A stretch of DNA of 64,000 nucleotides from Isoetes taiwanensis (Eukaryota > Streptophyta > Lycopodiopsida > Isoetales > Isoetaceae): positions 26,444,620 to 26,508,619 of the forward strand of contig JAJEKV010000005.1 in the NCBI GenBank assembly GCA_021234155.1, in the 5' to 3' direction. Position numbers and translations under genes: made by a program. The notes under the pieces were generated by a model, which was not told the DNA's origin, did not search any database, and saw only the letters and a list, made by a program, of their open reading frames with translations. This document shows, in pieces, positions 1 through 33,426 of this stretch (position 1 is its first letter; every line of letters begins with the position of its first letter).

Positions 1-1808
1 TGGCCTCCATCTCTTCTTCCAGCAATTGGCATAATTAGCTGGGTAGACTTGGTTCCTCACCGGGATTGGCTCCCACCAAGTGACCAGAATAGTCTCAAAG
101 TTCTCCTTCTTATCATCCATTTGTGGCTCCTCGGAGCTAGGCCCACCCAAGTTGGGCACATCTCATCATCATGGCGTGCCATAAATAAACATCCCTTTCT
201 TCAAATCTTTGTATGGGTTGAATTCCGGTACAGGTTTGTCCTTCCACGGACCGACATAAGGAGGAGTGATAATAGCAATGGGTTCCACCACTACCGCTAC
301 ATCAGGTGGAGCTCGCTCTTGCCTAGTACATGGCCAGAAGTCATAATAAGTGCCTTCGTCACTGGTGATCTTCCCCAGTTCTTGCAAGAGTCTCATCCAA
401 TATTCAATTGTGGGCGTGAACTGTGCCGAGTACTTGGTTGTTTCTGGAGCACCCTTGTTACTGGTTGAACAAGCAACCCAATGCAATATATGCTTGTGGA
501 TACTGTTTCGCAGCAGGCCAAGGTCCTTCACCGATTTCTTGGGAGGAAGCAGCTTAGGATATCCAACTGGCATCATGGACTTGCCGTCGTCTTTTTCTTT
601 CCACATCTTTATTCCACCAGCAGGCAACCAATCTAGGTAAGTGGGTCGAGCTTTGTAATACATGACTGGCCAATCACCATTCATAGCGAATCTGAAGGTT
701 AGAGGGATGGTGACCCGTCAATCTATCATCCCCATCTGGTATGTAGCTCCGGAACTTTGTCAATAACATAGGGCACAGGTGTATTCAAGTTGCATTTGTG
801 GAATTCATACAGCAGTTCTGGCATTGTCAGCACCTCGGCCTTCTTTGGTGTCTCGCAAGGAGGAGACCCATTTTGGAGCAGATGATTCAGGCACTAACAG
901 GTGGCCTCCTGCATATTCGTGGACCATCTCTAATCTCTTCAAGATGCTATTCAAAGAACCCACATGGAAGTTAGAGTCATCTGGCCATAAATCTAGGGCA
1001 AAGTTCCCATAGCTTCCCTGTCCATGACCATGAGTCAGTGCACCAGTCAACGACGTTTTGAGCTTGTCAAGTCTCTAGAGAGACTTCACAAATTGTTGCA
1101 ATTTCGGAATCATTGTTTTCGTTTGATCCATTTTGTCGTGAATAATACAAAGATATTGGCCTGGATACTTGTGGGAGTATAATCTCCACGACCAGTACTG
1201 TGTGCGACATGAGGCCTGCTCTAGTCTATGTGCTCTTTTTTGATCATGCAATATCCTCCTCTCTCCTTCATCCTTGGTCTTCAGTAACTTTGTGCGGATC
1301 ACCTCGCACGTGTCGCATTTGGAGAATGCAATTTTCTTTACGATACTGACATCCCAGAATCCCCGCCTCCACGTTCTATGAAACCCAGTCAGAGATACCT
1401 TCTTGCCAGTCAGTGCCATAACTTCTGCATTAACTTCTTCGAGAATGCTGGACTTCATAAACATTGCAGGCAACTTCCTGATATTCTCTCTTATCCCGTC
1501 CTCATTTCTCCTGCTGCGGTGGGGCAAAGATTCACGGTTTTCCCTCACGAACATAGAAAACACAGCCTCACATGCCAATGTCGAGGAACGAGGCTGCCGA
1601 CTTTGAGATCCCGAGACTAAGGTACCACGCCCTCTCGCAAACGAGATTCCCTTGCAGCACTAGTCGTCTTCGACCTTTTCATGTTGTTGCCGAGCATGTC
1701 ATAAACAAAAGTAACCCTATCACTAGATTTGATGGCAAGGAATTCCTTTCGCATGTTAACAACTTGATTCGTAGAGAACTTGATGCAACACCTATTTTTG
1801 CAGCACAA
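1..1808 (-). pseudogene. DUF7869-like DDE transposase gene, copy 1, decayed and running off the window start
   Basis: Several minus-strand blocks read in order as one transposase-like protein. Block 1808-1617 holds the N-terminal part. Block about 1640-1075 holds a Cys pair (SKCDTCEV), a charged helix and the motif IIHDKMDQTKT, which sits where this family has its first catalytic Asp. Block 1050-805 continues with HGHGQGSYGNF. Block 684-169 is the C-terminal domain (WPVMYYKARPTYLDWLP). Positions 168-1 stay open (TWWEPIPVRNQVYPANY), so the gene probably continues beyond the window. Frame changes near 1600, lesions between 805 and 684, and three tandem TGA codons at 163-171 say it is broken, although unrecognised introns could explain some of this. 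The same family recurs at 26738-28010, where the Asp and DN..ENKN motifs are clearer. The DUF7869 name is from memory of the motif pattern. Confidence 0.55.
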
Positions 1809-1835
1809 GATCCTCCTGTAATTGAGGATAGCATT

Positions 1836-2522
1836 CTAAGTGGTGAGACAAACAAGCTTTGGTGGCCTTACAGCCTTCCTGGGCTGTCGGGAATGAAAAG
1901 TGTAATGACGTTTCTCATAGTTTGGGTGCTTTTGATGCTCTGAGCTGCCCTGGATGGACACTATATCTGCTTCCTGTTGTGGTGCCGCGGTCAATATCTC
2001 CGAGACCTTAACTCTGCCAACACGAACGAGGTCATTGTTCCATCTCACAAGCATCCCCGGTTTCGGCAGCTGCAAGCATCCCTGGCAACGGATATTCACT
2101 TCGGAGGAGGGGGAGGGGAGGGGGGAAGGGGGGGGCCTTGATAACAATGATACTCCCACAAATATAAAACCCAGAAACTGGTCACACACTGCATCATCAG
2201 GGCCAATGAATGATATGAATTCCTTTCCGGTGATATTGGAGTCGCAAGAGTGCCATATCTCACAATCCATTTCAAGAAGCGTATATCTTGTCAGCGGTTG
2301 TGCCTCCTTCCTCGCCTCTGTCCGTTGTCTTTTTCTAGAGACGTCATTAACAGACGACTCACGATCATCTTCACTTCTCCAGAGAACAAATGAGCCCCTA
2401 GCTTCTGCTATTGTGTTTGCATCTGGAGTCGGCCAAGGAAGGGTATGGTGGCCTTCGATCACTTCCTCCACACCAACGCTCACTACTCCATTCGGTATTT
2501 CCTTAAAGTGGCATTGTGTCAT
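1836..2522 (-). CDS. Unrecognised 228-codon ORF, likely 5' exon of the copy-1 transposase gene
   Basis: This open frame lies on the same strand just upstream of the transposase blocks. I do not recognise it. It contains GSFVLWRSEDDRESS, followed by a basic KRQR stretch (possible nuclear signal), a Pro/Ser-rich stretch (RPPPSPLPSPSSE) over the G-rich tract at 2103-2140, and WNNDLVRVGRVKVSEIL. Plant transposases often carry such charged, low-complexity N-terminal regions, so it may be the first coding exon of the same gene; unit 2 has a Pro-rich ORF at the same relative place (28590-29221). It ends within 30 bases of the next transposase block and in a different frame, so a splice or frameshift would be needed to join them. 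The palindrome field begins about 150 bases upstream of it, in its presumed promoter. Confidence 0.35.
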   Translation of the reverse strand: MTQCHFKEIPNGVVSVGVEEVIEGHHTLPWPTPDANTIAEARGSFVLWRSEDDRESSVNDVSRKRQRTEARKEAQPLTRYTLLEMDCEIWHSCDSNITGKEFISFIGPDDAVCDQFLGFIFVGVSLLSRPPPSPLPSPSSEVNIRCQGCLQLPKPGMLVRWNNDLVRVGRVKVSEILTAAPQQEADIVSIQGSSEHQKHPNYEKRHYTFHSRQPRKAVRPPKLVCLTT

Positions 2523-2675
2523 TTGGCCTACAACTCCTTTTGTTACCAGACGATCATGAGGAAGAGATACACAACCTGCACAAGGATTTCAGTAGTGTTA
2601 AAACCGAATAACGAGAACGAGAAAGCAATGCAAAAGACATAGGGGCATGACAATTTAAGGGTTACATGGACAATG

Positions 2676-3194
2676 AAATTGGGCGGGTGCCAATTTTCAC
2701 ATATGAGGCCCTTAGGTTCCCCTCAATGCAAATTGGGCAGGCGCCCACTTTGCCCACATCAGGCGCTTGTATAACGTCAGTATTAATGCAGTCAAAGACA
2801 GACTGAGTGCCAGAAAATGTTCACCTGCTAAACATGCCATGATCGCGGACAAATTGGGCGCCCGCCCAAATTAGCCGTGGTTGTAGAAGAACATTAAGGG
2901 GGGTAAGATTGGGCGCCCGCCCAATTTTACCTTCTGGGCATGCCTTGATCGCTCACAAATTGGGCGGGCGCCCAAATTGGCCCTTGGTGTAGAAGAACAT
3001 TCAAGGGGCTTGTTTCAACGTCAGTATAGGGCGTTGTTTCAACGTCAGAGTCAGATTGGGCGCCCGCCCAATTTCACCTTTTGGGCTTGCCTTCGTCGGG
3101 GACAAACTGGGCGCCCGTCCAATTTGTCCCTTCGTGTAAAAGAACATGAACGGGAGAGACACTAAAAGAACATCTTGTGTGCCCGCCCAATTTG
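2676..3194. repeat. Unit-1 palindrome cluster A (upstream of the transposase ORF)
   Basis: At least seven copies of a near-perfect palindrome lie here, starting at about 2676, 2730, 2851, 2906, 2957, 3054 and 3103, with a half copy at 3180. The arms are AAATTGGGCG and CGCCCAATTT around a two-base core that reads GG or CC, so each site has an orientation. Copies carry one to four substitutions. They sit between the two divergent genes of unit 1, in the presumed promoter of the minus-strand transposase. Flanking text also recurs (for example the phrase GTAGAAGAACATT), so older local duplications probably spread some copies. Confidence 0.9.
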
Positions 3195-4468
3195 TGAAGG
3201 GGGGAGGGCTGGACTGCACACCACAGTGGAATTATCATTGAGGAACTTGGAAAAAAACAAACAAGCACTGGAAGGGCCTCCAGACGGCACTAGAAGGGCC
3301 TAACTGCACACCACGGTGGACTTATCATGGAGGTTCTTGGGGAAAAACAAACAAGCATTAGAAAATAGCATGCACACATTCCCTGCACACCAATGTCAAG
3401 ACAAGCAAGCACTGCATCAAAACGCATAGTAGATGTAAATCTGACATTAGCCCGTAAAAGTCCAATCTCCAGAACTGTGACTGAACTACCAAGCCCTGTG
3501 TGATTGAGGAGTCGTGGATGAACAGGCGTCAACGAAAAGACGTGAATGAAGGGGTGTGTATTTGATTTAGGACACACACAGCTCTTGAGATTAGTTTTAT
3601 GGCAAATAGACATCGAGCTATGTCGAGTGCAAATTGTGGAAGAGCACAAACCTTTGGAGATTTAGTCCCCATGATTATTAAGCGCTGAAGATGGTTGCGT
3701 CTTGAAGATAAGAGACTAGCCAAGAATAGTATTGCCAGAAAACCGAAAGGTTTGATAATCATTTACATTTAAGCCTAACTTCCCCCCAAAATTTGAATGT
3801 AATTTCCCCCCTAATTTCAAAAAAATGTCCCCCCTAGCTTTAAAACATATTTTCCCGCCTGACCCTGCTTTGCATACGACACGTGCGTGATTGAAATTAA
3901 AATTGGGCGGGCTTTAAATGACATGTTTGAAATTCAAATTTTGTGTGCATTTAATAACGAGGTCCACAATTAATTCCTCACACTCGAACATGGCGACGGT
4001 CCATTTTTTTTTGAAAAGGTCCACTTCTTTTAGGCATGACACTTGTCATGCGTGCATGAACGGTCGACTGCAGTTTTAGAAAGTTATGTGTTTTCCCTGT
4101 TGCTTTCGCGCTTTCTGCTCCACTTAACACTGTCGCCTTTGGATTTTCTATTCACCAATCTTCTTCTTGTCGGCGCGCTATACTCCCGAACCAGCTGTCG
4201 GCTTCGTGTCGATCACTTGGCGCCTGCTATTTCTCAGCCGCTTGTCGCCTTCCTCTTGGCGCCTTCTTCAGTTGATTGTTCTATAGCCTTCGAATCCCTG
4301 CACACCAGGCGAATCGTACCAGTTGATGGCATCTCGCCCCACGATAGGAGGCAAAGGTAAGCTGGACCACTTGTTTAATATTAACTTGGCAGTATCCCTC
4401 AACGCCTGCCTGATTGAGACTGCCATATTATAAACCTGACCCTTAGGGTATCCTACCTTTCCATTGTG
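3195..4468. other. Non-coding spacer between palindrome clusters
   Basis: I see no convincing gene here. One degenerate half-site of the unit-1 palindrome is at 3899-3914. The stretch 3780-3850 is rich in C runs (CCCCCC) of the kind seen in promoter-like or repeat-derived DNA. A 105-codon plus-strand open frame at 4043-4360 has a hydrophobic start but no recognisable domain; it could be part of the 5' end of the downstream ParB-like gene's transcript. Confidence 0.5.
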
Positions 4469-5095
4469 GAAATTGGGCTGTGGCTAGCAATTTCGCCTCA
4501 CTGGTCCCCACCAATGCATACCTCTCTGAGGAAATTTGGCAGGCGCCCAATTGTTTTCCCACGGGGCGCCTGATGTTCCTCAAGGTTAGGTCATTGCCCA
4601 AATATGGTCTGGAAAGAGCGCCCCATGGGTCTCCAAAAGGGACCCTGACACCAAAGTGGGCAGACGCCCAATTTATTCGAAGGGTAGCTTTACTTTGTTC
4701 AATCCGAGACATGGGCCATTGAACAAATTGGGCGCCCACCCAATTAGCTGTGACTGAAGGCTTGAGATCTCTTCTTACACCAATGCTTACTTAAACAAAT
4801 TGGCAGGGGCCTACTGCAGAAGTCACTCCTTTGACGTTCATCTTGTTCCATGCCCCTCGCAGCAAATTGGGCGGACGCCCAATTTATTCAAAGGGGAGCC
4901 AGACTTTCTTCGATTGAAGGCATGGGCAGGAGCAAATTGGGCGGGCGCCCAATTTGGTGTGAAAAGGGATCCTAATCACGTTCATCCCGATGCATGCCCC
5001 TCACACCAAATTGGGCAGGCGCCCGATTTGGCCTCTCTGATCCAACTATTTCTACAGCCCCAATTCTCCTTCCAGAATTGAGTTTTAACAGCCCA
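4469..5095. repeat. Unit-1 palindrome cluster B (upstream and first intron of the ParB-like gene)
   Basis: Good copies start at about 4533, 4652, 4724, 4863, 4933 and 5007, with weaker ones at 4469, 4794 and 5088. Arms and core match cluster A. The cluster lies directly upstream of the acceptor TTATGTAG that ends at 5173, so the last copies are probably in a 5' intron or leader of the ParB-like gene. Stretches between sites share short phrases such as TTTATTCRAAGGG, pointing to duplication of site plus flank. Confidence 0.9.
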
Positions 5096-5178
5096 ATTTG
5101 AGCTCGGCCGAGTCTAGAATGCACTGGAAAATTTTGTTGGGGCCGTGTTCTAACACTTCTTTCTGTTATGTAGGAATT

Positions 5179-7761
5179 ATGGCGCGAACAAAGCAGACTG
5201 CTCGAGTTTGTGGGCCCGCACCGAGATTTGCAGAAGCTGTAGCCGAAGCAAGGACGGAAGAAGACAAAGAACTATTTGCTGGCATCACTGTAGTGCCCCA
5301 TGAAGTTTTGGCACTAGCTGAGGAATGGACCTGGTGCATGGAGATAGGGAATATCCACCCTGGGTCCCAGAAGAACCACCTCAAGGACCTCTTGCTTTAT
5401 TTTGGTGAGAGAGGGACACGGAAAATCCACTCAGCGGGTATCCTCATCGACATGGAGGTCTCACCCGATAACAATGATGATTTCCATTGAAGACACCATA
5501 GATCGGGCTTTCGTCCGTTATAAGCTTCCCCTTTCTAGCTACGAGCCCACAATGATGCACGCAAGTATAACTGAAAGCCCCCAATCCTACGCTCAGAGAG
5601 GATGGGCGCTAGACTCATATGAGAGTTTAGAGCGGTCGGGCATCAAATCTCGTACTGATATCTTGGATGGCTTCTACGCAGTCCGTCAGTGGATATTTGA
5701 ACATAAGCAGAACAGGTCTAAAGCATTGTATATGGAGTATCAAGGCAAAAACCAACCCAAAGTCTACGATACTAAGTGGCTAAGGTCCATATACGGGGCT
5801 CCAAAGAAAAGTGAGACAGCACAAGCGCCCGTGGAGACGCCGACAATTGCAAAGAACGCGAGGACACCTTTGACGACTAATCCCACTAAAACTGCCCCTA
5901 AACTTTTATTGGGTGGAATGTCGAGGACACGAAGGTCGCCCGAATTCAGTGCAGAAGAGGAACATTCATCTGAAGAAGAAGCCGGTAAGCGCAGAGAACA
6001 ACTTGTAGCTGGTCCGTCCTCCAAGAGACACAAGTGGGACATCTCACTTGAGAGCCCACATGGTTCGGAGAGGGAGTCTTTGACTGCATCTTCATCTGAA
6101 GAATGGGAGACTTCCCGACAGATCGTAAAAGTCACTCCATCAGCTGGCGACGTCACACAAGAGAGCAGACATGAGTTGTCTCAGAGTGCCATTGTCAACA
6201 TCAAGCACAGGGAGAGAATTTACCCTCTGGGGGTGGGCTTCAAGATTGATATCGATGTGTTCAAGATGCACAAAGCCCCGGCAAATATGACATGGAGGGT
6301 CATAAGTCCAGAGCACTTGGACACTCTATATGAATCATTTATCAGCCATCAGATGCACCCTCCATGTGCTGATGTCGTAATATTCAATCCACAGACAGGC
6401 CGTGCAATTAAGTGGAAGAAGGCCACAGACCTGGAAAATGCAGAATTCTGGATTGTGAATGGCAACCATACAATGACGGTTTCTCAACTGCTTGTTACAC
6501 AAGCTTTGGCATGGCCTCCCGAGAGAAAGCACTTGGCAGAACTGATATTCTTTTTCTATGCCAAAAGGAAATGCCGAATGCTGGCAGGAAATCTCACATC
6601 AATTGAGTACGTTCGTGTGAGCCAGGAGAACAATGATATAACAAAGAAGACTATACACGAAGAAGTATTCTTCGAAGAAATTCAGCAGCTTCGAAACCAG
6701 TGGGAATTTTACGGGAAGCCTAAGAAGGGGAAACGCGGGCAGTCCCTGGGTGGAGCTTATTCTGTAAGTGCTCTTCAACCTTTGTTGTTGATACTCCATG
6801 CTGTCTCGCACTGCCAAATTGGGCGCCCGCCCAATTTGAGACATTGAGGCAATTTGGGTTACATGCCTGAACACTAAACCCAAATTGGGCCAATTTGCCT
6901 AAATGAGTTTCAAAATGGGCGGGCCCCCAATTTGGTACTCGTCGAGGCAAATTGGGCGACCGCCCAATTTGGCACTCGTCAAGGCAAATTGGGCGGGCAA
7001 TTTGGCACTGGTCAAGGCAAATTGGGCGGGCGCCGAATTTGGCACATGTGTATAATGCTTTGTGTGTCCTGTAGGATTGGGTGGCAGTGGCGCTACAAAC
7101 ATTGAAAAAGGCAACTATGCGTGACTACGACTACTTTGTTTACCTGGATGACGAAACGTGGTCCATGTGCACTGAAGTCGCGCAGTTATTTTATGAAGAT
7201 CGTTTGAAGGATGAGAAGGGAGAAAAAATTGAAGTGAAAGATAGGCTGAGACTTTTCACCAACAATTCCTGTCGCCCATTGAAGTCCATGCATCCTCTAG
7301 ACCTGCAAAGGCTGATGAAGGAGATCAAGGATGGCACCACATTCCTCAAAGGTGGCAGGCGTACCATGAAAGTCATTGCCCTTGAGCTGAAGAAGATTGG
7401 AACAATGGAGTGGGCGCTTCTCAGATACCTGAAGGAAGTGAAAAAATTACCATTTCAAGACATGGCCGCCTTGAGGCAAGCTCATCCCATATTTACGGAG
7501 AACTTAATGCTTATGTTCGCCAGCAGTATCAGTGGATGGGCAGAAGGACGCAAAGAGATGGAGAAGGAAAGCTATCCGGTGGGCCAGTTGAGGAGGGGGG
7601 GCAAACCGTTTAAGTGTTTCCACGTGAGTCCATTAGGTTTGTGCCTAGACGAAGTGAACACTTCTGCCCGCTTCGTTGGTTGCGACTTCAGATATACTAA
7701 GAAATGGGCAATGGAAGACTATCAAAAATTCCTTGACGGTGGCTCCTGCCAGACAAGCTGA
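5179..7761 (+). CDS. ParB-like protein with an H3-tail-like N-terminus, 3 exons, unit 1
   Basis: Joining 5179-5404, 5502-6763 and 7075-7761 by GT-AG introns (97 and 311 bases) keeps one frame of about 724 codons. The ATG lies five bases after an acceptor (TTATGTAG). Residues 1-9 are MARTKQTAR, identical to the start of histone H3. A variable, charged linker (about 190-290, EEEHSSEEEAG, SSKRHKW) precedes a ParB/Srx-like domain: DIDVFKMHKAPANMTWRVISP, a helix, then FWIVNGNHTMTVSQLL, which matches the 'G.HR..A' signature. The part after intron 2 is alpha-helical. It aligns by eye with unit 2 at SGW...PVGQL, then FKCFHVSP...GCDFRYTKKW..EDYQKFLDGG at the place of methylase motif IV. The frame stops where LINE sequence begins, so the methylase half is missing here. 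The ParB call rests on the motif and on the matching layout of unit 2, not on a search. Confidence 0.6.
6815..7041. repeat. Unit-1 palindromes filling intron 2 of the ParB-like gene
   Basis: Five palindromes (about 6815, 6911, 6947, 6983, 7018) and one collapsed form (6880) occupy almost all of the 311-base intron between the donor TCT|GTAAGT at 6764 and the acceptor CCTGTAG ending at 7074. Spacing between the last three is 35-36 bases. Intron 1 (97 bases) has none. Unit 2 has its own palindrome packed into the intron at the matching place, right after the ParB-like domain. Confidence 0.9.
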
Positions 7762-7806
7762 TGGGGGATCGATTGAGCCTCATGGCTTGGGGCTGAAGCC
7801 AAGGGA

Positions 7807-8364
7807 GATGGCGAGGAGGAAGAATCCTCCAGTAAAGGGGAAGGGCGCGGGTCTCGGCATGCATGAAGAGGCACGGGCTGTAGGAAGTGGCATGCAATTG
7901 GTGGCAGAGATGAGGGAGCTCTTGGAATCCCCTTCGGTTGAGAGGTATGTAGATTGCTCTTCTTCTCAATATAATTCTGAGACCCCAGTGGATTGTGTTT
8001 TGGAGACTCCGGTCTTGATTCCATCAAGCATGCCCCGTTTGGAAACTGGATATGTGATGCCCTCTTTCTCTGTGCTTGGGAAGGGATCACTTGCTGGTGA
8101 TGCGCCCTCTTCTAGGGTGCATGTAGTTGATGTGCCTCCTGGGGTGCCCCTGGATACCTCTCAGGATGCCAGGGCGGCAGCCCCAACTTCTGTGCGCCCG
8201 GCCTGGCAGAGCAATGACACTGTTGCTCGCATCACTCGGCCGGGGTTTTCAGATTGGATCAAGCGCAAGGCTCTGGAGTGTAGTGTCCGTGTTCAAGAGG
8301 CTCTGGAATTTGTGGAGGATCATCACTCTGTTGACCTGCAGGCAGCTCTTCCAGAGACTCCATG
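7807..8364 (+). pseudogene. LINE 1, ORF1 N-terminal part (5' piece, cut by a Gypsy insertion)
   Basis: An open frame starts at GAG-ATG (7807, MARRKNPPVKGKG) and runs to the 5' LTR at 8365. It has a basic N-terminus, Ser/Pro-rich low complexity, and ends with SDWIKRKALECSVRVQEALE, a helix. Reading resumes beyond the LTR element at about 18055 with a DUF4283-like domain, which is typical of plant L1-type ORF1 proteins. The LINE 5' boundary is near 7740, inside the last exon of the ParB-like gene, so this insertion truncated that gene. No target-site duplication could be confirmed because the LINE 3' end is missing. Confidence 0.6.
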
Positions 8365-8849
8365 TGTTAGTCCTGTGCCTCCTGGTACATGACTATTCAT
8401 GCATACGACGGACCAGATCAAGCTCAAGGATCCACGAGGCGAGCACGCGGTCACCGTCCAAAGCCCGAAAAAAAGACCAAGCGGCCCGACCCACGCAATC
8501 AAAGCTGCGTCCGTCAACAAGAGGCTCCTTCGGACAAGTGATGGCACATCACCGCCACCGTCGGCGTCAGTGATTCTAGGCACTTCAAGAGGCACCGCCA
8601 ACATTCCTCGCAGAAATCGGGCCTCCTTCCGAGTCGGCAAGATCGATCGATCCCGAGTGTCTATATTGGGCCAAAGGCCATTGTACTATATATATGAGTA
8701 GAGCTAGCACATGAGTTTTAGATGAGTTTTGAGTCTTGTCTCTCTTCAGTATTCTCTCGATTGCGAGAGTTCATGTATGTTCATCATTGATATCAAGGAA
8801 GCTTATCATTTTCCTCTCATTGTTCTCTTTTGTTCTGTTTTCTTCTTCA
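8365..8849 (+). repeat. 5' LTR of the Gypsy element
   Basis: It begins TGTTAGTC and ends near TTCTTCTTCA, giving TG...CA ends. It contains GGCCATTGTACTATATATATG around 8676-8698, a TATA-like promoter, followed by the likely transcription start region. It pairs with 17545-18030. The primer-binding site directly after it was not recognised. Confidence 0.8.
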
Positions 8850-8875
8850 GGTCTCTTTTGCTCCTCCACAGGACT

Positions 8876-10562: not shown

Positions 10563-10949
10563 TCACTTTTCGGATCTTTGAACCTCCCCGCTCTCACTGT
10601 AGATGTACACGCCGTCATGAAGCAATCTACGCTTGATGAAACTTCGGCAACCTCTCTTTTTTCACCACGCCGAAGTGCCACGCATCCCGTTATGCTTCAA
10701 CCTCCTGCTCATATTGTCCGGACACGGAAGTTATCCCCATATTCGGACTCACGAAGTCGAGAGTGTGGACATAGGCAACAATCACCTGTCCGAATTGTCT
10801 GCGAATCTTCCGACACCCTATCGTAACAGTGGGCTGTCACGCTCTTCAAAAGTTCAAACACATTTTCGCCGGAGCTATAGAGATCTTGGGGATCAACAAA
10901 ACCTTGGGGAACTCACCATTCCTACCAAGTCGATGCACGCCGAAAGATA

Positions 10950-18030: not shown

Positions 18031-18054
18031 TTGTTCTTTTCTTGCAAATCCCGC

Positions 18055-21155: not shown

Positions 21156-21319
21156 CCTCGGGATGACTCGAGGGAACTATCTTCAAACCATTCTATTCAT
21201 ATAGCAATGGAGTACATAGATGGAGTACATAGATAATAAAATAAACTAAACATCATGCCTCGACATAATTAGTTCAACACAAACAGAATAGATAATAGAT
21301 AATATTATACATGGATGTT

Positions 21320-21820
21320 TCAATCAATGCCCAGTTCTACCTGAATAAGATCCTTCAGATCGAACTCATCAATGTAACTTCGGCTATACAGATCCAGCCA
21401 GTCATCCAAATCTTGGACCGAATGAGTGCTGAGGATGAGCTTGGTTATCAAAGCTACATGCTGCCTTTTCTCCTTTTTATAAAGCTTCTTAAATAACGAT
21501 CTGAACGTGTTGTGCAGCCAAACATCCTCCATTTTCAGCAGCCTCTTCAGTGCCTCTGTCCTGTAAATAAGGCGTTTCAATGATATGAAGCAGGCCTCTA
21601 GCTCCACCCTATTGAGGTGATCCGGTTCGTTGCCTTCTTTTACCAACCCTTCCCCATGGAGGAGCTTTGTGAGTTGGTGACTGATTTCTTCTGTTCCATT
21701 CTGGTTGATCTCGTTTTGCACCTCAACCTGCAGCTGATTCGCATGAGCTAAGATTGGCTCACTAATATGAGACTGCATTTCGCTCATTGTGAATCCATAC
21801 CTGCGCCTCGTTTGCACCAT
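21320..21820 (-). CDS. Unrecognised 166-codon alpha-helical protein
   Basis: An uninterrupted frame starts at an ATG (MVQTRRRYGFTMSEMQSHI) and ends in IQVELGID. It is rich in charged and Leu residues with no signal peptide or membrane span; long helices are likely (LEACFISLKRLIYRTEALKR; LHNTFRSLFKKLYKKEKRQ; VQDLDDWLDLYSRSYIDEF). I recognise no family; the middle faintly recalls helical bundles of transcription-factor docking domains, but I would not call it. A donor-like GCAG|GTAAGT lies upstream on the same strand near 21974, so an earlier exon may exist. It lies just beyond the lone unit-1 palindrome, so it may be a passenger or the 3' part of unit 1, transcribed toward the LINE. Confidence 0.5.
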   Translation of the reverse strand: MVQTRRRYGFTMSEMQSHISEPILAHANQLQVEVQNEINQNGTEEISHQLTKLLHGEGLVKEGNEPDHLNRVELEACFISLKRLIYRTEALKRLLKMEDVWLHNTFRSLFKKLYKKEKRQHVALITKLILSTHSVQDLDDWLDLYSRSYIDEFDLKDLIQVELGID

Positions 21821-22024
21821 TCTTAGTGTCCCGATATGAATCTACACTGTGCAGATTTGTAAAAGCCGGCTTCAGTAGCAAGACCACCTATACTTCGAAG
21901 GCGCTTTTCCGGGACACAAACTTGGATGGCTCTTCCTTGGCTTAATAGACACAACGCCTGCCATCTCACTTACCTGCACGCTTCCCGAAATTTTGCATCA
22001 TTCTAATAAAAAAACCCCTATATT

Positions 22025-24578: not shown

Positions 24579-24600
24579 AAAAAAGAAAAAAAAAAAAAAC
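24577..24600 (+). repeat. A-rich tract at the 5' edge of the Copia fragment
   Basis: Eight A, one G and fourteen A on the plus strand mark the exact edge of the Copia homology. On the element's own strand this is a T-tract at the 5' end, so it is not a normal 3' poly(A) tail. Confidence 0.8.
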
Positions 24601-26737
24601 TTTCAGCAAATAATCAGGTTCTTACCATAAGATTGTATCATCTATCAGTCTGGACATAAATCAACCTGTACATTAACAGTCATCTATCAGATCAACAGGA
24701 ATTTCTATGATATTTCAGTTTTGTGTGCATCTATGCAAATGAAACAACCCTACATAATCTAAATGCCTCCTAATCATGATGTTTCTCTATAAAAGTTTCT
24801 AATAACATACCTAGTAGATTTGGTGGATGCAGTAGCAAAATCTACATTTCGTTTGATAAGTTTAGAGGCAACTGTAAGTCTTGAATAGAGATTTGTATGA
24901 TTTGATAAAGGAATTAAGTATAAAAATAGGGATGTTATATAAAAACACGAAAACAAGCAAGAACAGGCACTAAAATCCCAAAAAATAATCAAAGAAACTC
25001 AAGGAACTTACTAAAATCATGCTCACTTGCTTCTTAAGCTGCATGCTTTAGAATTGGTCAGCTCTTTGATTTGGGCCGTGCTAGTTTAGACGTCCCTATC
25101 TGTGGACCAGTTGACGATCATGTACATATCGTGGGTGGTTGTGGAAGAAGAAGATGAAGTCAGGCGCAGGAACTTTGATCGGGAAAATAGTTAGCAGTTA
25201 TTGTGTGCACTTCCTCGGGCCCATCAAAATTTTATGCTTTATAGTTTGGATGCAGTACGGTTTGACCATATGCCATGTCAGCAAACGCAATATGGGCACA
25301 ACATTTGGCATGGGTTAAAGGTTTTTTAATGCAGTTATAGTCCATTATAGTTAAAGTGGCTAGGATATTTTACAAGTTATTCTATTCACGTTTTCCACGT
25401 CTTTTTTGTTTTGCAATTCTAATTGCCCAATTATATTTTAAATGTGGCAATTTTTGACATATCATTTCTAACATAACATTTTTGGATTTTCTATGTGTAT
25501 CTAGGAAATGGCTTCAATTGAATACACAATTGCAAGCCAAATGTGAAGCAATGCCCGAGGCTGGAGTGGACGAAAATGGTATACTTACTGGTGCACATGT
25601 GCACTGATACAGTCTTTGCAGAGGGTATGATAACAACAATGCATCTATCAGATAGTGTAAATGATCAAAGGCTTGGGGATGACCATCTAGGTGTTGGCAT
25701 TGGATGGCTACTTATCCAAATTGATACCATCATGTCCCAAGGGACCTCTAGTGATTGCATTGTATGCTCTAGCCTGCTCGAGTCTAAAGCTTAGCTAAGA
25801 TGGCCAAGTATATATATTACTCACGTAGATGGAAAATGCCTGGAAGCTCCAACCCAAGAAGATGACTTGAATTTCCATCAAGGTCACGTGGAAGATTTCG
25901 TGCTTGTCGAGCATCAATCGATGACGAGGAAGAGGCTCTACCTGTTTCACAGAAGGCAACATCCAAAAGGATTAGATGTGAAAAATGCCAGGCAAAGGGT
26001 CTAACTTGGGGAAACCTTAAAGACTTCCTAAATGGTTCTAACAGACTATTGAATACCATTCGACAAGTTTCCCTCTGGACTACACAAGAATAGAGTTACC
26101 ATGTCTAATTGTAGAGTTAACTTATGTTGGGTGAAGGTTGCTTGGCAGGTTGGGATTGCAAAAACTATTATAGCTCAGAAACAGAAAGCAGAAGATAATT
26201 GTGACCACACATCAACAAGCACTTCTGCATGCCAACAGCTAGTCTTACTTCAAAAGGCACTTGGAACTGATTATTTGAGAAGTAGTCGGACATCCTCCAA
26301 ATCTTTCGTGATTCTCTTGTTAAAATGTATCCCCTTATGTTCCATGGTCTACAAATAATTTCTCTTGATTGTACATTGTTCATTTTTGAAAGATTATCTA
26401 CAGACAAGCAGCTTGCATAGTTTAGGAACTTGTACTATCACCACAAGGAAAAATCCTTTGCTTTGGATAATGAACTTGTGCATGAAATTCACCCCTTCTA
26501 GCCCTTTTCCTTTGCAGCAAAATGGAGCTAGATTCTACGGTTGGCTCATCCTTCTCGGGGCCTCCACATGTTCCTTCCTGATTTGCTCCATAAACATTAA
26601 TCTCTGATAACTTTTTTTAGACTGCATTGGGCTCCTCGACTGTACAAATACCAAATCAAACTCTAGTATTAATTTAATGTAATCATGTATATCATAAAAA
26701 CCATGAAGCGTGTTTGGCGTTATACTTAAAATAACAG
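24601..26737. other. AT-rich DNA without a supportable gene
   Basis: I see no gene I would defend. Short open frames at 25543-25794 (+) and 26101-26358 (+) lack known motifs and show no clear splice signals. They lie on the side where the C-terminal part of the copy-2 transposase should follow, so strongly decayed transposase sequence or a separate insertion could both explain them. Confidence 0.4.
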
Positions 26738-28010
26738 TTACACAAATATTGTAACGGGCCCATAGTTGACCGTTCGAGTAAATGATCCTTGCACAAGCAT
26801 AGCACAGTACCTAAATAATGCTTGGTTCTTATTCTCTCTCATTGTGTTGTCAAGTTGGAGGTACAGAACTGGTGGTAAATGCTCCAGACTAGAAAGAATC
26901 TTGTGCAAGATTGTAATAGCGAGATTAGAATCAACATGAATGTTTGGATAGTTTAAGAAAGTCTTGCAAGAAAGTTTTCCATTCAAGACCATGGCACCAA
27001 CAACATGCAAGTGTACAAAGTCTTCTTCTGGAGCATCCTTGGGCACATTGACAAAGTGTGGCAGAGTTGTTTTTTTCTGGTGCAATCCATCAATGACAAC
27101 TGATACATAGCTGAGAGGATGTTCAAGTGCTTTTTTCCTATGTTTTGTCAGCTTTCTCCTCTCAAGAGATTGTTGTTCTCTGTGATTGTTAAGCTTCTCT
27201 TTCAATGCATCTGAGAAGAAAAACATGGTTAGGAAAGGAATCTAACAGTACAGGCAACCAGAACTCTCGGAAGCTTACTTTTAATGTGTTGTGTCCTCGC
27301 ATTCTGTCGTTGAGCTTTCAATTCAGAACATGTAGCACAAACAGACATACGGTGCTTTCTAGGAACTGTTACCCGTGAGAATTCCTTTTTCCACAACACA
27401 GCCTTTCACTAGCTTCAACACACAAGTCTTTGTAGTTGTTATAAACCTCACGTTTAGTAAAGTTATCACTTAAATGGTACATTGGGCTGTTAGATAGTTT
27501 CTCGCAAGACTCTTTGAAGAAGCCTTCCATCCAAGAAACACATTGAAGTGCATGAATTCTTGAGACACTTCCTGTGTGGCAGTAGTCATTGATGCCTGGG
27601 TTCTTATCTAGCCCTTATATATGAAGTCTTCTGCTGCCTAAAGCATGAATCATTTTAAAGGCTGCTTGACAGACACTGCGCCCACCAGCTGTGTAAGAAA
27701 ACTTGTCACCTACGTCTGGTCTAATGTTCAGTGCTAAGTAACCTCATGGAACTGTAGTTGTCACGTAGTAGTCTTAATTCTCGGAGACCAATCTGTAGTA
27801 AACAGCGCTGCGAGCAACAATGTTTTCTATGAGTTGCTCTCAAGTGCCCCCCCATCCATCAATTTCCTTCGTCTTTGTGAGGTACAAGCCTTCTTGTGCA
27901 AGTCTCATTTGAGGTTATGACTAACAGGGGCCTTGAACTCGAACAAAGTATCTTTTGAGCGAGCTATATCCTCATCGGAAAGATCTACACGAGGTGTTTC
28001 TTCATCAGAC
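26738..28010 (-). pseudogene. DUF7869-like DDE transposase gene, copy 2
   Basis: Read from about 28010 down, the N-terminal part gives KEIDGWGGT, then DKFSYTAGGRSVCQAAFKMIH, WMEGFFKESCEKLSNSP, KREVYNNYKDLCVEASER and RKHRMSVCATCSELKAQRQ (a Cys pair). A 60-base GT-AG intron lies at about 27280-27220 (IK|GTAAGC ... CTTCTCAG). The exon 27219-26738 then has YVSVVIDGLHQKKTTLPHF with the first Asp, VHLHVVGAMVLNG, LYLQLDNTMRENKNQALF with the DN..ENKN signature, and YCAMLVQGSFTRTV. The expected H-T/H-E-D box after this is missing, because the frame ends at VTIFV. Stops and a frameshift near 27380 show it is not intact. This is the DDE-type enzyme that would move unit 2. It diverges from the ParB-methylase gene across the palindrome array. 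Confidence 0.65.
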
Positions 28011-28589
28011 ACGAGAACTACACGAGATGATTAGGGAATAAATTACTAATCGCATATTTCTTATTGCCAGAATGACTCTAGCTAAACTTGCTCAATATTA
28101 ATCCCAAAACTTTTTGTGGTTTAGCTAAACTCTATACATTTTTCCTCTCATACTTTCTAGCGTTTAGCTAAACTAACCCAAACATCATCCCAAAAATTTC
28201 TATGGTGTGGCCAACAGAAAACATTAAACCAAATTACTATACTTTTTTTCAATATATTCCACTTATTTTAGTCATTTTCTTTGTGAAAATATTCTAAAAT
28301 AATGCTAACTAGTAAAGCCTAGGACTCAAATTAATTCATAATGCTAGAAACTAAACTACTAGTCATATATTTCATATAAACTAGAATGATATTAGCTAAA
28401 CTAGCCCGAAGTTCATTCTAAAAGTTTCTATGGTTTAGCTAAACACTACAAAATTTCACGCTCTTACTTTCTAGCATTTGGCTAAAGAGCTCCAGGGTTG
28501 GTGCGGTCCCGAAAAAAGTGAAGCTAAAATTATTCTTTTTTTCCCAATTTTTTCCATTTACTTTAGCCAATTTTTTTTTTTTAAATGTG

Positions 28590-29221
28590 TTAAAAAATCG
28601 CCAAATAGCTAAGTTTAGCCCTTAAATTATTCCATGGAGATGATTCTTCATTTGAAGTAAGAGCAGTAGATGTAGAGGCTGATGTTGTAGAAGCTCCAGG
28701 ACCTTGTGTGGAAAGAGAGAGCCTGTCTCTGGAAAAAAGTAGTCTAGGTTGGTGGCGTAATTGAGCAGCTCCTGACGTGGCATAGGACACAGGAGTTGCA
28801 AGTCTAAGACTACCACCGCTAAGATCAGGATGTCCAGAGTTAGAAGGGGAAGGACTAAGTTGCACAGGCGCAGGAGTGAAGTGGACAGGAGAGGGAAGTC
28901 GACGTTGGGCTGCGGGAGGGGTTGGCGTAAATTGAACAGGGGGAGGTAGCCTGCGTTCAGGTACTAGAGTAGGTGGAGTGAACTGAACAGGAGGGGGTAG
29001 CCTGCTTCCAGATACTAGAGGGATTGGAGTGGACAGTGGTGGAGAAACGGTCTGCAAGTAAGAGTCGGGTGAAGATGAATCAACATCATCGTCTAGTGAA
29101 CACACTACTGAAGAGGAACCAATGCCGGCTGGAGGAGGGATGAACACCACACGTGGAGGAAGCCGTCTGGACTCAATGGTGGTGAAACATTTTGTTTTTC
29201 GCGGTCCATGGTAAGCAGTAG
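28590..29221 (-). CDS. Pro/Ser-rich ORF, possible 5' exon of the copy-2 transposase gene
   Basis: This minus-strand frame encodes a low-complexity protein with three copies of a 20-odd-residue unit around RLPPPVQFTP (SRLPPPVQFTPPTLVPE, RRLPPPVQFTPTPPAAQ, RRLPSPVHFTPAPVQL). An acidic patch (SLDDDVDSSSPDS) precedes it and a Ser/Thr-rich tail follows. There is no convincing ATG at its upstream end, so the frame may be entered by splicing; the upstream bases are unit-2 palindromes. Position and strand parallel the ORF at 1836-2522 in unit 1. It is probably a disordered N-terminal region; no enzymatic motif is visible. Between it and the transposase core (28010-28590) I see only AT-rich intron-like sequence with repeated TTTAGCTAAAC words. 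Confidence 0.4.
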
Positions 29222-29234
29222 AAGGAGTAGAGCA

Positions 29235-29309
29235 GTATAAATTTATACGGAGGCGGTACAAATTTAAACAGAGGTGGTATAAATTTATACCGTCGGTATA
29301 AATTTATAT
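29235..29309. repeat. Unit-2 palindromes at the transposase side
   Basis: Three copies of the unit-2 palindrome (core GTATAAATTTATAC) start at 29235, 29276 and 29295; the first is imperfect outside the core and the last ends TATAT. A degenerate one (GGTACAAATTTAAAC) lies at 29256. They are at the 5' end of the minus-strand Pro-rich frame. Confidence 0.9.
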
Positions 29310-29608
29310 GAAAGCTAGCAAAGAAAGGAAAGAATCCGTATACACACCTCTATGAACAACAACTGTACGAAAACATAAACGGAAAAAGTACTTAAGCCCC
29401 CCCGCTTCCCCGACTATTTACTCATACGCGAGTTCGGGACGAAGGCGCTCGCGATCCGCCTTAAATACTTGACCTCTTTGGCACTGCATCAACTCTATAG
29501 ACCTCTGTATACCACAATGGCCACGTAAGTATCCAACCTGGTACAGTTTTAGTTTGGTAAAAATTTTATTCTACTAGATCTTTAAATATTTTCTAGTTTG
29601 TACTCCGT

Positions 29609-29896
29609 CGGTATAAATTTATACCGCGAAAGTGCTTGGCCGTCACAAAACCAACAGTGTGGTGACTCGAACGGTATAAATTTATACCGCGTAAGCACTT
29701 GGACTGTATAAATTTATACCGTAGGAACCACGAAGAGCGTAGATGGTCCGAGCGCTCACGGTATAAATTTATATCGTCCGAGTGCTTACGGTATAAATTT
29801 ATACCGCCCGAGTGCTCATGGTATAAATTTATACCGTCCGAGAGCTCACGGTATAAATTTATACCGTCCAAGTGCTCACGGTATAAATTTATACCG
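29609..29896. repeat. Unit-2 palindrome array, five units in exact 30-base tandem
   Basis: Eight copies of CGGTATAAATTTATACCG (18-base perfect palindrome) start at 29609, 29672, 29704, 29759, 29789, 29819, 29849 and 29879. The last five are spaced exactly 30 bases apart, and the 12-base linkers are alike (TCCGAGTGCTCA type), so this is a tandem repeat whose unit contains the palindrome. It lies between the divergent transposase and ParB-methylase genes. Confidence 0.95.
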
Positions 29897-30063
29897 TCTG
29901 AGTTCTAGATTTGGCAAAATTTGGGTCGTATTCTGCAAACAGTTACACAGAAAAGAGATGTTTATGTGAGAGAAAAAAAAACAGAAAACCTCAAAATTTA
30001 TCACCTTTGTAAGCACAATCATCAATGTTTCTGGCACTTTTTTTTACTACGGCTTTGTTTGCA

Positions 30064-31423
30064 GCTCCAGTGTTGTTCCAAGAAAAAGGCCAACGTTCTG
30101 CCACAGAATCAGATCTTTACGACATGAAGGATACCACCTGGTTCGTGCATCGGGGTGCCAGAAGCAGATCTCCTACAGATGCTAATTTGTACATCTGTAA
30201 CAAGCCAGGCAGAGCCAAATACAAGGCAGAAGACTATTACCCGGGTGGAGAAATGTGTAGCATTACAGCCACAGAGAACGAGAATAAACTTTATCTGAAA
30301 ACTCTGAATAATGATAAGGAGGTGGATTACCTTCTCTCCACTACGATGTTGAGAATATCAATGTGCAAGCCTAAGGACGTTCAAGAATACATTTCTGATA
30401 ATAATAAAGCAGGGCATATAAGTACAGAGTTCACAAACTGTGACTTGATTTCGTTTCGTATAAATTTATACCGATCGTATGCTCAAAACATTTCTTCTTA
30501 CAGGACATTGTTGACATTTTGGCATTAGTTATCCTCTGCGACGAAAAAGATGGTAAAGGGCATATGGTATCCACGTGTCAAGGAAGATTCAGACAAAGCA
30601 AGTGAGACAGAAGACGAGGAGGTTGAGGAAGAAGTGGTCCTGCCCTCTAAGAAAAGACCTGCGGCATCTAAGGCCATAGAAACTAAAAAACAGAGAACAA
30701 CCAAGGCACTAACCATTGATGAATCAAAAGAAGCTTTGAAGAAGGCGCCTGCCAGCTGACAGATCTAGCGCTTTGCTAAAAGGGGTCAATGAAACGAAGT
30801 TGTCAAAGCAAATCATTTCATTGTCCATAGACACAATTAAGAAGCCTCCTAAGAACGAGAATGGTGTGAGGTTGCTTCAAGTGAGGAAGCTCTATGCTGC
30901 GCATGTTGCTATCTTAAAGCAGAGAATGCGGAGGAATCCATGTGCACATGTGTCCCCGCTAGTTGTTATGGTCAGCCGAGATCAGATTCAAGAACTCTCA
31001 GAGTACAAGAAAGCTCTTTTTGAAGATTACACATATTATGTTTTAGGTGGCACCCATAGTTACAAGGCCAGAAAGGAGTTGTCGAAAGAAGAAAGCAGGA
31101 ATGGAGTTTGGAAAAGTGTGGAGGTACACATTTATGTTGGACTGACCGATGAAGAAGCTAAAATAGTAGCAGTGAGCCACAACTTAGACAACGACTTCAG
31201 GTTGAAGATGAGCTTAATTGATAAAATTCGTTTTATGCACAGAGAGTTTGTGGAGTTTAAAAACGAGCATGGTGAGGACTTCAAAAAACAGAAAAATATG
31301 TTACAGCAACTGCGAGAGGTTTGTGTCACAGAATGTTGCCTTAGCTATGACACGGATAAGAAGCCTCACATGGCCATGAAGCAATACGACAATTACTTTC
31401 AGCTTACCTTTCGAAATGGCCAG
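30064..31423 (+). pseudogene. ParB-like half of the unit-2 ParB-methylase gene
   Basis: After an acceptor (TTTGTTTGCAG, ending 30063) a frame reads ATESDLYDMKDTTWFVHRGA to about 30440. A further exon from 30504 (DIVDILALVILCDEKDGKG) is likely; its joins are unresolved. An acidic/basic linker follows (TEDEEVEEEVVLPSKKRPA), then a one-base frame change between 30740 and 30757. The frame 30773-31423 holds the ParB/Srx-like domain: SIDTIKKPPKNENGVRLLQV, a helix with AHVAILKQRM, SPLVVMV, YYVLGGTHSYKARKEL (the 'GG.H...A' signature), KSVEVHIYVGLTDEEAKIVAV and SHNLDNDFRLKMSLIDKIRF, as in ParB 'dl.deeA....eN' helices. The exon ends NGQ|GTGAGT at 31424. It is homologous in layout to 5179-7761. The one-base lesion makes this copy probably non-functional unless it is an assembly error. 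Confidence 0.65.
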
Positions 31424-31466
31424 GTGAGTTCTTAACTTGCTGTAGAAGGTTCTCTTTCGTGTTCAC

Positions 31467-31640
31467 GGTATAAATTTATACCACCAGCATACTTGGTATA
31501 AATTTATACCGCTTAGGTTCTAGGTTTCTCTTTCGTGTTTATGGTAAACTTGGTATAAATTCATACCGCTAGGCGTCTAGACCTGTTCCATGCTCACGGT
31601 ATAAATTTATACCACCAACATTATTCGTATAAATTTATAC
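31467..31640. repeat. Unit-2 palindromes in the intron after the ParB-like domain
   Basis: Five copies (31467, 31495, 31552, 31598, 31626) fill the 246-base intron 31424-31669. One has a single change (AAATTC) and the last lacks its final C. The intron lies at the same place as the palindrome-filled intron of unit 1. Confidence 0.9.
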
Positions 31641-31669
31641 TAAGATATTCATTGCATTGGGTTTTCTAG

Positions 31670-33364
31670 GTGTGGGATTTACAAGAAAGAATTTTTTGTA
31701 TGTTCGAAGATGGTGAACTGAAAGAGCAAACAAGCAGCACGGGCAAGAAAACAAAGAAAAACACAGAGGCCAAACAAAAAAATATGAGCATTGTGCCATA
31801 GACGCAACTTCAGGGAATAAAAAGCAAAGAAATAATTGTCAGGCTACTAGAAAAGGTTGTTGCAAAAGAGTCTACACTTGATGAAATGGCAAAAGAAGCC
31901 AAGACGTGAGTTGTCATCTTAATTTGCTAGGTTCTTTTTGTCATTTTGTAATTGGGTTCCTCTGTTTCATTACAGTCAAAAAGACATTGTTACTTGCTAG
32001 TCTGAGCTTATGAAGCAACTAAACCTAGAGGTGTGGGAGGAGTGCAAGCTTCTTTACCCTGGAAGTACGTCCGACAATATTATAAGAGAGCATGCTGTCA
32101 ACTTTAGTGGCTGGGTATGTAAACTTAGGCTCATCTTCGAGGAGTGGCTTCTTACTGTGTGTTGTTTTACAGAACAAAAAGAAAGGGCTACCAGTAGGAT
32201 CTATGAATCTAGTTCGGAGAGCAAAAGAAGAAAGGCACAGATTGAAAGCCATAGAACAAGGCAAACAAGTTGCAACAAGTGGCTCGAAGGGTGACTATAA
32301 AAGATTTACCACCTTCGGCCAAGATTGTTTGTACAAAGTAGTGCATGGCGACTGCAGAAAAGTGCAAACATTCGTTGAAAAGCAAAACTTCACGCTTTGC
32401 ATTGCTGACATACCTTACGGGTTCAAGATAAAGGACAATCTTTTTGATGATGAGGCCTTCTCGCACATTCAAGTTCGAGAATTCTTGGAAGGCCTGAAAG
32501 AAGTTACCTTGTCTTCCCATTGGCGTATCATTGTTTTCCACTCAGACTTGCAAACAACGTCTGTACTGAAGCCCATGGATGTCGTTTGCAATGCTGGCTT
32601 CGAGAACTGTATCTGGTAAAGTCTAGAGCGTTGCGGTATAAATTTATACCATCTACTTTGTTTTCTAACTTCCTCTTTCCAGGTTGAAAAAGAATGTAAA
32701 AGGAAATGGTGGAGGTCCTAGGCTGGTTAGCTGCTTCGAGCACTTCCACATGGATATTATAGTGCCGACACCAAGAAAACCATGGTGCACTTTAATACGC
32801 GAGAAGAGAAATCACCTCCTTGCAATGCTTTCCAATTTCCTGCTGGTGTTGCAAAAGTTAAGAGATCCTCAACGTCAAGGTGCTGTGGTTTCTCACTACC
32901 AAAAACCGCAGAGACTAATTAACAACTTGATACAATGGTTCTCTCGCCCAGGTGACTGGGTCCTTGATGCATTTTCTGGAACTGGCACCACAGCAATTTG
33001 TGCTCTCAAGCAGGGTCGCAATGTGGTGTCCATTGATATAGATGTGGATAAAATCAGTTTCATAAGAACTAGAATAAGTTCTTGTGAGTCTTTTCCTGAT
33101 AAGAACGAGGAACTTGGTGTTAAGAGTGCAACTGGAGAAGTTAAAAACACTTACACAGAAGTACAGCCTCCTATCACGGGGAGGCGTGATGATAAGGTTG
33201 AGTTCGTTGACCTCGAACCAGTACAAGAACAGACTGCAGAGAAACCCCTAGAAATTTTGGCGCAAGCAGAAACAGGTGTCTCCGTCCAAGTGTTGTCTCA
33301 AGAAGATGAACGAAGAGGGGATGAGAGTCCCATGGACTGGGATGATCCACCACCCAACAGATAA
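31670..33364 (+). pseudogene. N6/N4-type DNA methyltransferase half of the unit-2 gene
   Basis: Exons 31670-31905, 31976-32114, 32173-32615 and 32683-33364 join in frame across introns of 70, 58 and 67 bases with GT-AG ends. The domain reads YKVVHGDCRKVQTFV, LCIADIPYGF (motif IV, D-I-P-Y for the usual DPPY), HWRIIVFHSDLQT, WLKKNVKGNGGGPRL, HYQKPQRLINNLIQWFSRPGD, LDAFSGTGTT (motif I, S-adenosylmethionine binding) and NVVSIDIDVDKI. Motif IV before motif I is the beta class, as in PF01555. The Asp in motif IV favours adenine-N6 over cytosine-N4 (usually SPPY). An acidic tail ends EDERRGDESPMDWDDPP. Two in-frame TAG codons (31799, 31998), both possible CAG>TAG changes, lie before the catalytic part; the methylase exons themselves are open. 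The same transcript would carry the ParB-like half. Confidence 0.8.
32635..32650. repeat. Unit-2 palindrome inside a methylase intron
   Basis: A perfect GGTATAAATTTATACC sits in the 67-base intron 32616-32682, between methylase motif IV and motif I. The two neighbouring short introns (70 and 58 bases) lack it. Confidence 0.95.
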
Positions 33365-33382
33365 ATATTTATTGCTTGTTGT

Positions 33383-33426
33383 CGGTATAAATTTATACCG
33401 CTGGGCTTCGGTATAAATTTATACCG
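33383..33426. repeat. Unit-2 palindromes just downstream of the methylase stop
   Basis: Two perfect 18-base copies at 33383 and 33409 lie 19 and 45 bases after the TAA at 33362. They are the last copies in the window, so unit 2 probably ends not far beyond. Confidence 0.95.

Follow-up and report, generated by a model that had tools for sequence, protein, structure and literature searches.

Here we report that a 64,000-nucleotide stretch of the Isoetes taiwanensis genome (GenBank assembly GCA_021234155.1, contig JAJEKV010000005.1, positions 26,444,620 to 26,508,619 of the forward strand; hereafter the window) contains two units, at 172-7758 (unit 1) and 26741-33425 (unit 2), each consisting of a decayed DUF7869 transposase gene on the minus strand, head to head with a plus-strand gene for a ParB-like/DNA-methyltransferase protein. 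Each unit also carries one repeated palindrome, GGTATAAATTTATACC in unit 2 and CAAATTGGGCG-NN-CGCCCAATTTG in unit 1. We consider it probable, though far from assured, that both units are decayed copies of a single class of DNA transposon, separated by an ancient divergence, whose accessory gene product would bind and methylate the palindrome of its own element. Both units were read in all frames, and the exons given for them are manual models in which most splice sites are canonical and the donor at 30415 is not.

A transposase gene opposed to a ParB-like/methylase gene

An earlier reading of this DNA by eye, without database searches (the sequence-only reading), had described the same layout in both units, and our searches bear this out, for unit 2 through two profile matches and for unit 1 through the profile tests described below. 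In unit 2 the minus-strand open reading frame (ORF) 26741-27241 matches DUF7869 (PF25273, E 3.2e-22, Pfam), and plus-strand positions 32669-33361 match N6_N4_Mtase (PF01555, E 2.5e-14, Pfam). Pfam describes DUF7869 as a domain of unknown function; from three conserved acidic blocks we infer that it is a DDE transposase. A read-through composite of the minus-strand pieces of unit 1 reaches E 4e-4 and 20.4 bits against DUF7869, the Pfam cutoff being 26, and these pieces align in order with DUF7869 transposases from Riccia sorocarpa and ENA contigs; the transposase search listed eight proteins, three of them from R. sorocarpa and none named Chara. Both transposase genes are damaged: that of unit 1 lacks about 170 amino acids (P0016 numbering), including the DN..ENKN and GHTHED blocks, its catalytic second half being missing between 805 and 717, and that of unit 2 ends before GHTHED, so that the third acidic block is absent from both.

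The unit 2 methylase has the features of a beta-class amino-methyltransferase, namely a motif IV ahead of the S-adenosylmethionine (SAM) motif, the N6_N4_Mtase profile and a matching fold. The methylase half of a structure model of P0008, one of the relatives introduced below, finds M1.HpyAVI, CcrM, M.BceJIV and RsrI, adenine enzymes by name, as its best Protein Data Bank (PDB) matches, with METTL3 and N4-cytosine enzymes lower (PvuII at rank 44); the model is weak overall, at a predicted local distance difference test (pLDDT) score of 49. The accessory methylase is accordingly a beta-class enzyme, and most likely acts on N6-adenine.

Ahead of the methylase, positions 30740-31432 match PHROG 1033, ‘ParB-like partition protein’, at E 3.9e-4. 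ParB proteins show a pattern of GERRxxA, a strand and a T-x-x-EA...N block; the accessory family has a GGxHxxEA block at the GERRxxA position, with the strand and the T-x-x-EA...N block coming after it. The order of the two domains also has prokaryotic counterparts: by Pfam, ParB_N precedes N6_N4_Mtase in three of five prokaryotic methylases taken from our match lists, those of Gardnerella phage AB1 (1.1e-6, above cutoff) and of the Streptococcus phages Javan93 (4.2e-5) and Javan346 (6.9e-5), which are near relatives and fall below cutoff, and the phiGT1 and Chlorohelix plasmid methylases showed no ParB_N. One scan of IMG/VR returned a single locus, matching 41 methylase residues, and two further scans gave none. 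The PHROG match, the motifs and the phage enzyme architecture together make the ParB label quite likely, rather than proven.

The joined unit 2 protein retrieved one relative, CBR_g66820 of Chara braunii (E 1e-38, among scored candidates from 5.77 billion sequences), at 24% identity in the search and 30% in a pair alignment. A profile built from these two lists 15 proteins (P0001-P0015; 7979 candidates scored), 13 of them C. braunii gene models and two from JGI metagenomes; the list includes CBR_g66820, which was part of the query, many of the Chara models are partial, and the adjacent models 39710 and 39711 may be one gene. The ParB-like motif and methylase motif IV occur together in seven of the 15, five from Chara and both metagenome proteins. 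Positions 30529-30756 of unit 2 score 30 bits against a hidden Markov model (HMM) of the family, which includes unit 2 itself. One Chara gene model, P0005, is fused to a DUF4360 domain (E 3e-31), perhaps through a model error.

Unit 1 as a distant member of the family

Pfam searches of both plus-strand genes, which the sequence-only reading had proposed, recovered N6_N4_Mtase in unit 2 and no convincing match among the unit 1 ORFs (best E 0.052). The 384 unit 1 residues that extend from the ParB-like block to CDFRYTK reach a score of -62 in an end-to-end alignment with the family profile; shuffled sequences averaged -170 (standard deviation 19.8, best -109), none of 120 reached the observed score (z 5.4), and the reversed sequence scored -175. 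When the sequence is split, the exon 2 part gives z 3.82 and exon 3 gives z 3.24, with 0 of 150 shuffles reaching either, and CDFRYTK still falls on motif IV when profile and sequence are extended past it. A separate test of the ParB-like part gives z 3.85 globally (0 of 100 shuffles, the best within one unit) and z 2.44 locally, where 2 of 100 shuffles reach the score. A local HMM search of unit 1 yields 1.9 bits, exceeded by 6 of 500 shuffles; BLAST between the two units is not significant (best E 0.12), nor is hhalign of the unit 1 exons against the family (P 0.26 and 0.29).

It is the end-to-end profile tests, alone among these comparisons, that point to unit 1 as a distant family member retaining the start of a methylase domain. 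The sequence-only reading was right to place a methylase in unit 2 and had overlooked this second one, which is broken at about 7741-7760, where the unit ends in DNA resembling a long interspersed nuclear element (LINE; judged by eye, with a reverse-transcriptase motif near 21040-21090). The identity of unit 2 is firm, and unit 1 is best described as a very diverged member.

An additional feature of unit 1 is that positions 5179-5205 of exon 2 (plus strand) encode MARTKQTAR, identical to the first nine residues of histone H3. A query with the first 21 amino acids has four PDB matches, all to histone H3 (best E 0.31); with the first 49 residues of the exon, histone H3 was not found at E values up to 10. 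None of P0001-P0015, some of them partial proteins, contains MARTKQTAR. The peptide would be internal if the tentative exon 1 is real, and would form a free H3-like tail if translation starts at 5179. This one observation in a broken gene may reflect a captured piece of H3, mimicry of the region around H3K4, or coincidence.

Palindromes outside the modelled exons

With up to four mismatches allowed, the unit 2 word has 24 matches in the window, 21 within 29234-33425, of which 13 are exact, and three weak ones elsewhere, and shuffling its 8 kb 20 times gave a mean of 0.4 and a maximum of 2. The unit 1 word, with up to six mismatches, has 19 matches, 18 within 2675-7041 and one at 21133 (shuffles: mean 0.05, maximum 1). 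Within these mismatch limits unit 1 contains no copy of the unit 2 word, and unit 2 none of the unit 1 word, in agreement with the earlier claim that the palindromes of the two units differ. An exact-palindrome scan (arms 6-8, gap 0-3, at least three copies) returned the two unit words and the three-copy GTTTAGCTAAAC. The latter, in three exact copies at 28039-28486, lies within the unit 2 transposase gene region, in a duplication of some 135 bp. The extra unit 1 word, at 21133-21156, has similar flanking repeats and lies beyond the LINE-like DNA; it may belong to a displaced right part of unit 1 or to another copy, and the minus-strand ORF 21323-21841 beside it has no Pfam match.

Modelled exons are touched by none of the 21 unit 2 sites and none of the 18 unit 1 sites, an avoidance that would have probabilities of 5e-11 and 2e-6 under independent placement, but the sites are clustered. 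Mean pairwise identity in unit 2 is 0.93 for the core and 0.33 and 0.35 for the 10-bp flanks (210 pairs), and in unit 1 it is 0.79 for the core and 0.27 and 0.30 for the 15-bp flanks (153 pairs); the core values are inflated in part, to the disadvantage of our interpretation, by the selection of sites for similarity to the word. Conserved cores between drifting flanks are, as far as sequence can indicate, the pattern expected of protein-binding sites. In the unit 1 word the arms are retained, whereas the two bases at the centre are usually G or C, neither being clearly preferred, which fits recognition of double-stranded DNA by a symmetric protein dimer.

Could the words instead be ordinary local repeats, multiplied by duplication and recognised by no protein? 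The arrays are partly tandem, with units of 30 bp at 29746-29903 and of 37 bp at 6911-7045, and in the 30-bp array flank identity rises to 0.79-0.83 (10 pairs), from which we conclude that part of the field grew by duplication; the similarity-based choice of sites also favours this explanation. We nevertheless regard it as highly improbable, since over all copies the cores are kept between flanks whose identity is close to random, in unit 1 the arms alone are kept, and modelled exons are avoided even though the unit 1 word has no stop in any reading frame and the unit 2 word has one in a single frame. A reading of the words as RNA hairpins was set aside without calculation, the loop being only 0 or 2 bases.

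Proposed self-recognition and its alternatives

Based on these observations, we suggest an accessory protein that would join a ParB-like domain to a beta-class amino-methyltransferase, probably bind, as a dimer, the palindrome repeated solely in its own element (between genes and in introns), and methylate the DNA at the bound palindrome. The likeliest use of such a mark would be to keep the regulatory DNA of the element open or to let the element escape host silencing; alternatively, transposition could be regulated through self/non-self recognition. As each element has its own word and the proteins are strongly diverged, self-recognition is the simplest reading, and the VANC precedent discussed below shows that recognition of a private word in noncoding DNA can benefit a plant element. 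In green algae N6-methyladenine (6mA) is found around transcription starts (PMC12633428), and adenine marks placed there could therefore keep an element active. Word binding, word methylation and an anti-silencing effect are what we infer from the arrangement; more tentatively, and in a form that we ourselves lean against, it could amount to a parS-like transposon system, with a private palindrome in promoter and introns, co-divergence of word and protein, marking by each lineage of itself alone, and one lineage carrying an H3 tail mimic.

Several results weigh against the interpretation as a self-methylating transposon. Both copies are broken (n=2), interrupted by insertions or cut by the start of the window, and no terminal repeats were recognised among the best 25 of 112 and the best 25 of 46 inverted repeats. 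Of 29 Pfam families recorded for the 15 relatives, the 25 listed include none for ParB, and no ParB PHROG was found in the four relatives scanned (P0001, P0003, P0007, P0008); a structure model of the ParB exon has a pLDDT of 40, unusable for fold; and global comparison of the family ParB-like block with three bacterial N-termini gives z 1.2-1.7, with controls up to 1.4. Motif IV reads DFPC rather than DFPY in nine of the ten Chara relatives that cover it (P0002-P0006, P0009, P0010, P0012, P0014), which may mean that many copies are inactive as methylases. Rotating whole site sets also leaves the exons untouched in 46 of 4213 and 84 of 5922 positions, about 1% each, and four unit 2 sites (29234-29310) overlap an ATG-less minus-strand ORF, the exons themselves being models. 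The ParB-like domain of the sequence-only reading accordingly gains a weak PHROG match and motifs and finds no ParB among the Pfam families listed. Its proposal of one transposon family whose members each have their own word keeps the shared class, the noncoding words and a pairing also known from Ectocarpus; the phrase ‘own word’ is drawn from two copies and from binding that is presumed.

The same DFPC substitution, together with the sites between the divergent genes, would suit an accessory protein acting mainly as a transcriptional autoregulator or as a ParB-like DNA-bridging clamp, with methylation minor or lost. We think this unlikely, although it deserves serious attention: D-x-P-Y-G and the SAM motif are retained in unit 2, P0001, P0007 and P0008, and one sampled phage methylase also has DVPYG.

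Transposon proteins commonly bind repeated words, as in CACTA elements, and the palindromes could be sites of the transposase or of a different protein of the element, for instance a TnpA-like regulator, with the ParB-methylase as a passenger of general role. In favour of this, 8 of the 18 sites of unit 1 (field A) and 4 of the 21 sites of unit 2 (29234-29310) lie at the start of the transposase. The remaining sites, 10 in unit 1 and 17 in unit 2, are found instead in modelled introns or at the 3' end of the ParB-methylase gene, and we judge this explanation distinctly unlikely; because both proteins have diverged along with the words, it is not decidable from sequence alone.

The layout itself might be a coincidence of unrelated mobile-element pieces nested side by side, in a window that does hold nested repeats, a Copia polyprotein and reverse-transcriptase pieces. 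This seems very unlikely to us, as both units have the head-to-head order, with word fields lying between their genes as well as inside them, and an Ectocarpus transposon shares the pairing of the two genes. Recognition by the ParB-like/methylase protein of its own element remains the reading we prefer.

Features of the units and the window

The elements of the two units are listed in Table 1. The upstream end of the proline-rich unit 2 ORF overlaps palindromes, and the nearest minus-strand ATG is at 29209.

Table 1. Modelled genes and palindrome groups of the two units, in window coordinates
Unit	Feature	Position	Strand	Evidence or remark
1	Transposase, C-terminal piece	172-717	-	Matches P0016 ‘LQFRFLMIDEFPVMQYRM...GIKMWK’; downstream of DUF7869 domain
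1	Transposase, central pieces	805-1074 + 1075-1659	-	DUF7869 E 4e-4 on composite; ‘YLCIIHDKMDQTKT’ and ‘SLTGALTHGHGQGSYGNFAL’ match P0016-P0018
1	ORF, transposase N-terminal end	1836-2588	-	Assigned by position only; no Pfam match
1	Palindrome field A, 8 copies	2675-3194		Upstream of transposase
1	Tentative exon 1	4328-4357	+	ATG, GTAAGC donor
1	Palindrome field B, 6 copies	4531-5030		Modelled intron 1
1	Exon 2	5174-6763	+	One frame change near 5480-5490; ParB-like from about 6240 (NGNHT, NLTSIEYVRVSQENND)
1	Palindrome field C, 4 copies	6815-7041		Intron 6764-7074
1	Exon 3	7075-7758	+	Linker and methylase start, then cut off; CDFRYTK on motif IV
2	DUF7869 transposase	26741-27241	-	Truncated past its first two acidic blocks (VVIDGLHQKKT, LYLQLDNTMRENKN)
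2	Upstream transposase piece	27372-27614	-	Position and reading frame; part of read-through composite
2	Proline-rich stop-to-stop ORF, transposase gene start	28593-29303	-	By position; no Pfam match; no in-frame ATG
2	Palindromes, 4 copies	29234-29310		Between divergent genes, upstream of ATG 29209 (-)
2	Tentative exon 1	29518-29525	+	ATGGCCAC, GTAAGT donor
2	Palindromes, 8 copies	29610-29895		Modelled intron 1; five at exact 30-bp spacing
2	N-terminal exons	30064-30414 + 30504-30756	+	Frame change near 30558; palindrome in gap; donor 30415 non-canonical
2	Palindrome, single	30457		Gap between N-terminal exons
2	ParB-like exon	30773-31423	+	YYVLGGTHSYKA, YVGLTDEEAKIVAVSHN; PHROG 1033; aligned with family
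2	Palindromes, 5 copies	31467-31641		Intron 31424-31669
2	Linker exons	31670-31906 + 32004-32108	+	One stop in 31670-31906
2	Methylase exon	32173-32616	+	Motif IV ADIPYGF
2	Palindrome, single	32635-32650		Intron 32617-32683
2	Methylase exon	32684-33361	+	SAM motif DAFSGTGTT; PF01555 E 2.5e-14
2	Palindromes, 2 copies	33384-33425		Past stop codon

The window as a whole has a eukaryotic character and is repeat-rich. The LINE-like DNA at 7741-21090 holds repeats resembling long terminal repeats (LTRs) at 8364-8859 and 17544-18040, 88% identical, and a Pfam scan of 19424-20725 within it found nothing. A Copia-type polyprotein with integrase, SH3-like and RVT_2 domains is encoded at 22923-24602 on the minus strand. 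Tandem duplications at 36439-37077 and 56313-57091 have units of 323 bp (97%) and 389 bp (94%), and a perfect 34-bp palindrome at 50909-50942 is listed once.

Comparison with known systems

The closest known arrangement is that of the Ectocarpus transposon Sola1-1_Ec32, in which a ParB-like domain and an N4C/N6A methylase occur in one protein encoded opposite the transposase; the protein is proposed to bind and modify the transposon that encodes it, and further cases from green and red algae are cited (Iyer 2011; Petroll 2025) (PMC12477816). The units described here share with it a single ParB-like/methylase protein on the strand opposite the transposase, in unit 1 as in unit 2. They differ from this brown-algal element, which is classed as Sola1, in having DUF7869 transposases and streptophyte relatives. 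The string ‘palindrom’ does not occur in the main text of that paper, and its section on this gene names no target (PMC12477816). The statement in the sequence-only reading that no plant transposon pairing ParB-like and methylase functions had been described holds for land plants, as far as our searches go, and is to be set beside these algal cases. The pairing with a transposase is, in short, already known in algae, and the DUF7869 context and the private noncoding palindromes are new as far as we searched; in the papers searched we found none on DUF7869, and no account of private palindromes in such elements.

The phage proteins that combine ParB_N with N6_N4_Mtase have the two domains in the same order as the accessory family and are among the prokaryotic matches listed for the P0008 methylase. 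They are shorter, at 411-418 amino acids against 789 for P0008, their ParB parts have no significant similarity to those of the family, and no transposase is found among the few listed neighbours of their genes. Fungal DNA transposons of several superfamilies carry TET/JBP genes, which are thought to aid escape from silencing (PMC12730594). These resemble the present units in that a DNA transposon carries a DNA-modifying enzyme; in contrast, TET/JBP is a dioxygenase acting on 5-methylcytosine, and the available text on it mentions neither a ParB-like part nor private words.

The VANDAL elements of Arabidopsis combine an anti-silencing protein, VANC, with a Mutator-like transposase, VANA. The sequence-only reading had invoked VANC as a functional precedent only, and rightly so, because the transposase here matches DUF7869 and the accessory protein N6_N4_Mtase, neither of which places the units within VANC/VANDAL. 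VANC21, which brings about a loss of DNA methylation, recognises YAGTATTAY in arrays of uniform orientation (PMC5735166, PMC10398659); VANC targets are noncoding, lie in introns and upstream of VANA, are partly tandem, and differ in word between related families (PMC5735166). As in that system, a short word is repeated in the noncoding DNA of its own element, with similar placement. The words here are palindromes and the protein is a methylase, whereas the available accounts of VANC mention no ParB or methylase domain. With its private palindromes, which lie outside modelled exons, each element offers a concrete target, so that the proposed self-recognition becomes directly testable. If it is real, sequence-specific self-marking by transposons would have arisen separately from VANC, by way of a bacterial-type methylase, in relatives of land plants.

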